Below are positions 3,467 to 4,544 of a stretch of 21,230 bases of DNA, one piece after another. Below the pieces are notes generated by a model. That model did not search any database. It was given only the letters and a program-made list of their open reading frames with translations, and was not told the origin of the DNA. Source of the stretch: a virus; the IMG/VR virus record IMGVR_UViG_3300006736_001251, positions 1-21,230 of that record. The stretch is one strand, 5' to 3'. Position numbers and translations under genes: made by a program. Within the stretch, counting starts at the first letter, position 1. The number at the start of each line of letters is the position of its first letter.

Positions 3467-3896
3467 TTACAAAGACGTATTTAAGTTAAAGAAAAAGAAG
3501 CGTAAGGGAAAAAAGCCCTTAAAGATTCAAATACCGGGAATTACTGTTTCCGAAACGGGAGTTTGGGTAAAAGATAAAGCCCCACCAGAAAAAGTTTGGG
3601 CGCAGTTAACCCCGGACGGTAGATTAACACCACTCATCTCAAAAGTAAAACCCACAAATCCCGGTTTGACGGGTCGCAAACTAGCGTGGGCGCAAGGCAG
3701 TCGTCCAGCAAAGCCTCGCCCAATGAAGGGGCCGCCAAGGATTTTACCACCTGAGATTGATCCCAAGCATAAGAAAAAACCAAAAGCAAAAAAACGATCT
3801 GTTAAGAAGACTGCTGGGGGAGAAGGTGGACGAATGAAAATAGGTATTAGAACGGGAGCTAGTGGATTATCGAAGTTAGTTAAAGCAATGAAATGA
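3459..3896 (+). CDS. Lys/Pro-rich basic protein, unknown function
   Basis: 145 residues from a GTG at 3459 with a good ribosome binding site (AAGGAG at 3448-3453, 5-base spacing). It starts MADYKDVFKLKKKKRKGKK. Residues about 22-60 look folded and beta-like (IQIPGITVSETGVWVKDKAPP then VWAQLTPDGRLTPLI). A Pro/Lys-rich stretch follows (KPRPMKGPPRILPPEIDPKHKKKPKAKKR), and the end is a short amphipathic tail (TGASGLSKLVKAMK). It is the second very basic protein of this block and lies 400 bases after the histone-like gene. I infer nucleic acid binding or charge-based packaging; nothing defines a family. Confidence 0.65.
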   Translation: MADYKDVFKLKKKKRKGKKPLKIQIPGITVSETGVWVKDKAPPEKVWAQLTPDGRLTPLISKVKPTNPGLTGRKLAWAQGSRPAKPRPMKGPPRILPPEIDPKHKKKPKAKKRSVKKTAGGEGGRMKIGIRTGASGLSKLVKAMK

Positions 3897-4072
3897 AAGC
3901 ATTAGAAGGTAAAAAAACATACATGACGGCAGCCGGTGGTATTCTCGCAGCTGTGGGCGCGTATCTCTCTGGAGATATGGAAATTGGAACTATGGTTCAG
4001 ATAATCATAACGTCTTTACTTGCCACCTTCCTACGGAAAGGCATAAAGACAGATACAAATGGGGGTAATTAA
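3893..4072 (+). CDS. Small membrane protein, EGKKTY type, possible holin
   Basis: 59 residues. The ATG overlaps the stop of the preceding gene as ATGA (3893-3896). It begins MKALEGKKTYMTAAGGILAA, with a hydrophobic first segment (residues 10-25), a short SGDMEIG turn, then a second hydrophobic segment (MVQIIITSLLATFL) and a basic RKGIKTDT end. The 'LEGKKTY' start followed by two short hydrophobic segments and a terminal R-x-G-I is a pattern I recall from many small phage proteins in or near lysis cassettes. A holin-like role is therefore plausible. It overlaps the next gene by 14 bases. Confidence 0.65.
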   Translation: MKALEGKKTYMTAAGGILAAVGAYLSGDMEIGTMVQIIITSLLATFLRKGIKTDTNGGN

Positions 4073-4340
4073 ACTACTTGCATCGTTGTTTAAGGCCATA
4101 CCGTCATTGGAACGGTTGATCTATAAGCTGTCGGATGCGCTGAAAGAGGCTAATGCAAAGAATCGGCTGGAAGATAAGTTGGGTCATATTGATGCTCTCA
4201 TTGATGGTGAGCGGGTGCAGCACTCCACGGCTGGAGGGCGTGACGGAGTTAAGCCAACATCCGGAGTTTCAAAGGGCAAGAGAGGCCGCGCCAGAGTTCA
4301 CAAGGGCCGCTCTAAAGATGGTCGCAAGGCTGGAGTATGA
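4059..4340 (+). CDS. Small protein carrying an out-of-frame lipoprotein gene inside it
   Basis: 93 residues from ATG 4059. The first half is protein-like: an amphipathic or hydrophobic N-terminus (MGVIKLLASLFKAIPSLERL), then an ANAKNRLEDKLGHIDALID helix. This resembles small phage proteins often found just before an Rz1-like lipoprotein. From about residue 52 on the sequence becomes Gly/Lys/Arg-rich and of low quality, as expected where the codons are dictated by the lipoprotein gene read in another frame. The stop overlaps the ATG of the gene at 4337 (ATGA). By analogy with nested Rz/Rz1 pairs this could be the inner partner, but it lacks a clear transmembrane helix, so the assignment is tentative. 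Confidence 0.55.
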   Translation: MGVIKLLASLFKAIPSLERLIYKLSDALKEANAKNRLEDKLGHIDALIDGERVQHSTAGGRDGVKPTSGVSKGKRGRARVHKGRSKDGRKAGV

Positions 4341-4356: not shown

Positions 4357-4537
4357 TTGTCGGGAGTTGCGCAATGACCTTGATGAGTTATTGGAAGCTG
4401 TAAGGGAATTGAAACATGAGTTGGGCAGCGATAACGAAGAGATCGAGTCAAACGGTAAGCGCAATCACAAAAAGAACCGCGACTTCGGTAACGGCGATTA
4501 CAAAAAGAGCCAAGCTAACGGTTGCCGCCATTACTAA
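4337..4537 (+). CDS. Small coiled-coil protein overlapping two genes
   Basis: 66 residues; ATG in an ATGA overlap with the stop of the 4059 gene, with AAGG at 4326-4329 as a possible binding site (7-base spacing). Residues 1-32 are a convincing charged helix (NDCRELRNDLDELLEAVREL). From residue 27 onwards the frame overlaps the AITKR-repeat gene (4416-4544) and the sequence becomes Asn/Lys/Gly-rich, looking like a by-product of that other frame. So either this is a real gene with an unconstrained tail, or only its first part is under selection. No function can be assigned. Confidence 0.45.
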   Translation: MRLNANDCRELRNDLDELLEAVRELKHELGSDNEEIESNGKRNHKKNRDFGNGDYKKSQANGCRHY

Positions 4538-4544
4538 ACGATGA
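4416..4544 (+). CDS. 42-residue AITKR-repeat protein
   Basis: The ATG at 4416 has AAGGGA at 4402-4407 (8-base spacing), and the stop overlaps the ATG of the tail-adaptor gene as ATGA (4541-4544). The protein is MSWA, then three 11-residue units and a partial fourth, each beginning A-I-T-K-R. The four AITKR blocks use different codons at most positions: Ala gcg/gca/gcg/gcc, Ile ata/atc/att/att, Thr acg/aca/aca/act, Lys aag/aaa/aaa/aaa, Arg aga/aga/aga/cga. The amino acids are thus conserved while the bases drift, strong internal evidence that this frame is the translated one. The repeat is basic and amphipathic. I recall similar W-x-x-[IV]-T-K-R repeats in small phage ORFs before tail genes, without a known function. 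Confidence 0.75.
   Translation: MSWAAITKRSSQTVSAITKRTATSVTAITKRAKLTVAAITKR
4428..4541 (+). repeat. 33-base coding repeat (3.5 units) of the AITKR protein
   Basis: Units start at 4428, 4461, 4494 and 4527. Each encodes A-I-T-K-R, three variable residues (the first of them Ser, Thr or Ala), then (S/T)-V or T-V and one small residue. The units differ mostly at third codon positions. Confidence 0.85.

Follow-up and report, generated by a model that had tools for sequence, protein, structure and literature searches.

A selectively maintained 11-residue-repeat microprotein gene overlaps the SU10-type tail adaptor gene in a group of uncultured phages and may encode a tail anchor

Introduction

In phage T7, six copies of the basic protein gp7.3 sit inside the channel where adaptor and nozzle meet, with the C-terminal loop anchored to the nozzle subunits and the disordered N-terminus surrounding the DNA (PMC11784390). 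In phage SU10, the N-terminus of the long tail fibre, the fibre dock domain, lies on the surface of the adaptor (PMC9509320).

Here we describe a microprotein gene in a 21,230-base IMG/VR virus record (hereafter the window, the whole stretch of DNA analysed). Like T7 gp7.3, which is mostly unresolved or disordered (PMC11784390), its product is a small, basic and putatively tail-associated companion of the adaptor and nozzle. Unlike gp7.3 (99 aa), the repeat peptides are only 30‒42 aa long, and the T7 study mentions neither 11-residue repeats nor CBM-inserted alleles (PMC11784390); we claim no homology between the two. The fibre dock of SU10 provides another likeness: an appendage is attached there through a peptide segment bound outside an SU10-type adaptor dodecamer (PMC9509320), and the repeat peptide may likewise carry one by docking. 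That segment belongs to a 786-aa fibre protein, of which it is the N-terminus, whereas the repeat peptide is a microprotein in its own right, with an optional domain between the repeats at its two ends. Similar to the CBM/Ig-like domains on phage structural proteins, this central domain is an optional glycan-binding-like β-sandwich on a putative virion protein, but it interrupts the repeat peptide instead of extending a capsid or tail protein.

Results

Organization of the repeat gene and its neighbours

The region comprises the following features.

4337‒4537, plus strand: 66-aa ORF overlapping the repeat gene, likely a lineage-specific gene of the closer clade (pN/pS 0.27 at 4358‒4414)
4400‒4412, plus strand: SD-like stretch (AAGGG) 5′ of the repeat ORF, read from the sequence
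4416‒4544, plus strand: gene of the 42-aa repeat microprotein (ORF with a period-11 repeat, conserved in every relative, pN/pS about 0.4)
4541‒5608, plus strand: SU10-type tail adaptor gene, ATGA-overlapping the repeat gene (match of profiles A2 and A6)
5601‒7340, plus strand: gene of a nozzle-like protein (position and family context; co-varies with the peptide type)

The ATG ORF of 42 codons at 4416 encodes MSWAAITKRSSQTVSAITKRTATSVTAITKRAKLTVAAITKR, in which unit 1 (MSWAAITKR) is followed by three 11-residue units, each terminated by AITKR. The period-11 self-match of this peptide covers 17 of 31 positions (0.55), a value that was not reached once when its residues were shuffled 20,000 times. 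The computed charge is about +8.5, with a pI of 12. The coordinates, sequence, ribosome-binding site and ATGA junction given for this frame in the original prediction were borne out on re-reading, with the SD-like AAGGG ahead of the ORF and CGATGAG at 4541 as its junction with the adaptor ORF. Most relatives also have AAGG or GGA ahead of the repeat ORF. The overlap itself is evident, and the peptide would be co-translated with the adaptor if the ATGA serves for coupling. The AITKR blocks had been described as using different codons at most positions. This is correct for most pairs of blocks but not for every pair, since 2‒4 of the 5 third positions differ per pair (2‒5 of 15 nucleotides overall).

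The adaptor ORF encodes 355 aa. While the window protein itself has no PF24175 (SU10_adaptor) match, relatives L112, L110, L113, L114, L136, L169, and L180 pass the gathering cut-off of this family, and the window adaptor profile (A2) aligns by hhalign with the profile of a distant clade (A6) over nearly the full length (100% probability, E 3.8e-76, 45% identity). The tail-adaptor identity proposed for this gene is thus supported. For the nozzle-like protein itself, neither Pfam nor PDB gave a match.

Elsewhere in the window, positions 1798‒3896 contain very basic low-complexity ORFs (a Lys/Ala-rich one of 419 aa, one of 41 aa ending in GRRRRRG, and one of 145 aa). The motif R-x-I-G/Q-K-M-G-P/G occurs twice in each of the ORFs 1018‒1794 and 7662‒8969 (window positions 1087‒1110, 1549‒1572, and 7743‒7799). 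It was not seen in the relatives scanned and may serve virion proteins in common for docking or processing.

Selection on the repeat ORF

Relatives were retrieved via the adaptor gene (72‒100% identical), and all 35 that include the adaptor start have a 42-codon ORF at the same place, giving 19 distinct peptides together with the window. A profile search brought in the further relatives L060 and L064‒L066, and within the AITKR clade the exact 42 codons and the ATGA junction are retained in 39 of 39 bare-peptide contigs. Across the 22 distinct nucleotide sequences of this clade, the pN/pS of the 4416 frame is 0.41 (0.39‒0.43 overall, and 0.43 with the start codon omitted), while a column-shuffle control gave 0.84 ± 0.18, with 0.48 as the lowest of 200 values. 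The same bases give 0.80 in the +1 frame and 1.50 (1.5‒1.64 overall) in the 4337 frame. A pN/pS of about 0.4 indicates purifying selection on the 4416 frame, and the codon varies at 10 of the 15 degenerate residues that are invariant across the clade. Chance or a frame artefact is ruled out by the shuffles, the pN/pS values, and the distant relatives. By these comparative measures, the 4416 ORF is a bona fide, selectively maintained gene, and the pN/pS values and the relatives uphold the proposal of a conserved microprotein that is under selection as a protein and linked to the adaptor gene.

An ATGA overlap with the start of the adaptor gene would also be expected of a leader ORF that serves solely for translational coupling of the adaptor and whose peptide is irrelevant. 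This explanation is hardly credible and is already contradicted by the protein-level purifying selection, by repeats that are kept while their codons drift, and by the recurrence of this motif in clades whose DNA has diverged.

When units are compared by position across genomes, they are more alike (similarity 0.70) than the units of a single genome are to one another (0.53). The duplication of the units is therefore old and has not been homogenised, and concerted evolution of the units is ruled out by the same comparison. No second copy of the repeat peptide was found elsewhere in the genomes searched.

A probably overprinted ORF at 4337‒4537

The longer competing frame had been described as showing no comparable order. 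This description applies inside the overlap (pN/pS 1.5‒1.6) but not upstream of it: in the 19 codons between the stop of the upstream lipoprotein ORF and the repeat ATG, the pN/pS of the 4337 ORF is 0.27, and no stops occur in 16 distinct sequences. Since the codons ahead of the overlap are constrained, both ORFs are considered genes in the closer clade. The C-terminal half of the 4337 product, which is basic, is read from the bases of the repeat gene in another frame. We looked for homologues that keep the 4337 frame and have lost the 4416 frame and found the reverse; in the distant relatives L031‒L035, L060, and L064‒L067, the 4337 frame is absent or stopped and the repeat is kept. The repeat gene is likely the older of the two, with the 4337 ORF a lineage-specific gene that overprints it and whose C-terminal half is dictated by the AITKR frame.

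Breadth of the family

A wider search with the profile of the nozzle-like neighbour (A3) and then with the distant-clade adaptor profile (A6) yielded additional contigs. In all of the approximately 120 IMG/VR contigs with an intact slot, a repeat peptide of three or four units (30‒42 aa) or a fusion of it is present, ATGA-coupled to an SU10-type adaptor gene and directly 5′ of it. The A6 search accounts for 80 loci, a second and more distant set, three of which end at the contig edge; in each of the other 77, an ATGA junction couples a repeat protein to the adaptor (two fusions, and bare peptides of 30‒42 aa). Besides the AITKR peptides, an AVTAR type of 42 aa (MATTAVTPRTKPTVSAVTARTKSSVSAVTARSKPTKSSVTAR) was found, together with a 31-aa version in L136 and L146 that is shorter by exactly one unit. 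Peptides of 30‒33 aa, such as MATSAIVKVTPTKAKTALVKRDKAAVTALVKR and MTPAVKVTTTKETAPPTKRDKPAVAPAVKR, go with adaptors that are only about 45‒51% identical, and their scores against the AITKR-unit profile were matched or beaten by 0‒18 of 2000 shuffles.

AlphaFold models the bare peptide as one long helix (pLDDT 87, pTM 0.51; other models 56‒84), unlike separate docking motifs. We do not trust a continuous α-helix, given the prolines within the units of many relatives and an additional Pro-rich clade; since Pro-rich relatives such as MTPAVKVTTTKETAPPTKRDKPAVAPAVKR exist, a conserved helix is unlikely.

A pattern scan of 2.9 million viral contigs for in-register [AV]-I-[TA]-K-R blocks with a 33-base period matched 21 stretches, all of which sit in contigs of relatives of this locus. 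The peptide has no significant match in INPHARED (tblastn) or in PHROGs, Pfam, and PDB (profile searches), and the best candidate, phrog_14302, fell short of significance (best E 0.044, 3 of 17 members). No homologue of the repeat peptide was found in isolates, the nozzle profile found no prophage relatives in one genome per GTDB species, and our literature search found no paper describing this repeat peptide. The original prediction had mentioned small Trp/Thr-Lys-Arg repeat ORFs before phage tail genes, which these databases and the literature search did not confirm.

Pattern scans of viral and genome contigs for a wider class of WTNVTKP-type repeats gave essentially chance matches. A suggestive case is the 72-aa ORF of L038 (868‒1666, minus strand), the only analogous W-type ORF found next to an SU10-type adaptor. 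Its W-T-x-V-T-K-P motifs recur with period 11 at both ends of an insert, and it adjoins a PF24175 gene. This ORF comes directly after its adaptor, whereas the repeat peptide comes before its own, and the L038 ORF is not significantly similar to the AITKR unit profile (221 of 2000 shuffles).

Co-variation of the peptide with the adaptor and nozzle

A lysis-like cassette is located at 3893‒4356 of the window, with a holin-like ORF (3893‒4072) followed by the ORF 4059‒4340. A lipoprotein ORF (4153‒4356, lipobox LMVSGCS) is largely embedded in the latter in another frame. The arrangement at 4059‒4356 resembles embedded spanin genes and is similar in relatives.

The relative L112 shares 96% identity in the holin and 72% in the spanin-like protein with L065, against 52% in the slot, 44% in the adaptor, and 41% in the nozzle. 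With L115, which also has an AVTAR peptide, it shares 81% in the adaptor and 72% in the nozzle. L112 is thus a natural recombinant. Since its lysis genes are like those of L065 and its adaptor and nozzle like those of L115, the peptide has travelled with the adaptor and nozzle. In a partial Mantel test of 28 loci, the peptide-adaptor correlation given the lysis genes is 0.60 (0 of 999), a value from which shared ancestry is not fully removed, and the partial correlation between the peptide and the lipoprotein is likewise positive (0.39). The peptide type therefore seems, from few recombination events, to go with the adaptor and nozzle and not with the lysis genes.

These results bear on a possible role in lysis. 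The repeat gene lies directly 3′ of the holin-like ORF and of the lipoprotein ORF nested in another frame, and its product is cationic, as would suit a lysis-related or membrane-active peptide of the holin/spanin-like cassette. Since the peptide type in L112 follows the adaptor and nozzle rather than the holin, and since the CBM fusions described below would make little sense there, we regard a function in lysis as very unlikely.

Fusion alleles with a CBM-like insert

In eight contigs from eight data sets, which represent both main clades (L094, L095, L096, L101, L103, L109, L110, and L111), the same slot encodes a fusion protein of 180‒214 aa with an inner domain of about 150 residues. The ends of the fusions resemble the repeat peptide, with MTPIVNKTR or MTPVTKRDK at the start and ITPITKR or VPITKR at the end. 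The L096 fusion retains two C-terminal units (ITPATKRTKPSVTAITKR), while those of L110 and L111 start with MATVAVTAR and end in the more diverged SAAIIR. The adaptors of L096 and L109 are 97‒98% identical to that of L065, with fusions of 191‒199 aa in the former and a bare 42-aa peptide in the latter. The same swap is seen in the AVTAR clade between L110 (fusion) and L114 (bare), whose adaptors are 91% identical. Judging from these pairs, fusion and bare peptide are alleles of each other.

AlphaFold predicts a β-sandwich within residues 12‒171 of the fusion, with a local pLDDT mostly of 70‒95 from residue 50, and the repeat ends unfolded on their own (pLDDT <50). In Foldseek, the inserted domain matches CBM22, CBM16, CBM4, and CBM29 (E 2.9e-5 to 1e-3) with modest TM-scores of 0.4‒0.5, as well as CBM-cenC domains of phage tail, tail-fibre, and baseplate proteins (E 6e-6 to 1e-3 overall). 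The domain is named CBM-like only, because Pfam finds no CBM family in it by sequence. The predicted CBM-like insert may bind glycans and face outward, but CBM-like folds are common and the TM-scores modest, which weakens its interpretation as a cargo.

As a separate observation, the relative G001 (L125:6869‒13321) contains a 2150-aa tail-spike-like ORF, 13 stretches of which match PHROG tail spike models, and the L125 locus also has ORF stretches of 12‒13-residue acidic repeats (RTETRVVTPAEEE).

Discussion

The repeat gene product would be a small, basic, repeat-built tail protein that is translated together with the adaptor. Each of the 11-residue units ([TSAD]-K/x-[P/x]-[TSA]-[VI]-[ST]-A-[IVL]-T-[KA]-R) may represent a short linear docking motif for equivalent sites on the adaptor/nozzle ring, so that the peptide would stabilise or staple the adaptor/nozzle junction and act as an anchor. 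In some phages, a CBM-like β-sandwich insert separates the first unit from the last, and the same anchor may then show a glycan-binding domain outside the tail. The fusion and its fold are supported by computation, whereas the display of the CBM-like domain and its binding are inferred. We give about even chances to a virion peptide that docks on the adaptor or nozzle through its cationic repeats and can carry a glycan-binding cargo.

The main rival is a role like that of T7 gp7.3, in which a basic channel peptide at the adaptor-nozzle junction would hold the DNA end, help the nozzle assemble, and be ejected first. The charge and pI of the peptide, its small size, and its coding position among tail genes fit this role, as do the ATGA coupling to the adaptor and the co-variation with the adaptor and nozzle; T7 gp7.3 is itself basic, with six copies and a C-terminal loop on the nozzle (PMC11784390). 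However, folded CBM-like domains of about 150 residues would hardly fit in several copies into a DNA-filled channel, and such domains occur in eight contigs on near-identical adaptors. A search of 50,697 phage records, PHROGs, and Pfam gave no significant peptide match that would point to gp7.3 homology, although the peptide is too short and diverged for this absence to decide. We consider a gp7.3-like role somewhat unlikely. The fusions favour the outside of the tail, while the charge and size also fit the inside. The alleles with a CBM-like insert point to an exposed anchor and away from a plug, and the linker or tail-tube plug of the original prediction stays a rival.

The basic composition and the nearby small Lys/Arg-rich ORFs (1798‒3057, 3341‒3466, and 3459‒3896) would also suit a DNA-condensing or head-packaged peptide, one among the many small basic proteins of this region. 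Charge alone would not account for the strict register and length of the repeats, the co-variation with the adaptor and nozzle, the ATGA coupling, or the CBM insertion, and we consider such a role quite unlikely.

Returning to the anchor on the tail, we tentatively propose a modular virion "docking tape" as a new class, in which three or four in-register 11-residue motifs form a constant partner of the SU10-type adaptors in this phage group. The repeats would bind symmetric sites of the tail ring, and the phages may repeatedly splice in glycan-binding domains, thereby gaining an extra adhesin with the structural genes untouched. The peptides are best filed as a new, unnamed family of adaptor-companion microproteins within the known small tail accessory proteins, and not as gp7.3 homologues.

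The present locus suggests that metagenomic sequences by themselves can suffice to validate a conserved microprotein, together with the second gene that overprints it. If our reading is correct, the adaptor genes of a large uncultured phage group are constantly accompanied by a peptide that has been overlooked and that none of the family libraries searched contains. The repeat unit would then give phage tails a docking motif that is short and portable, and the fusion alleles would represent a natural on/off adhesin swap at one fixed site.
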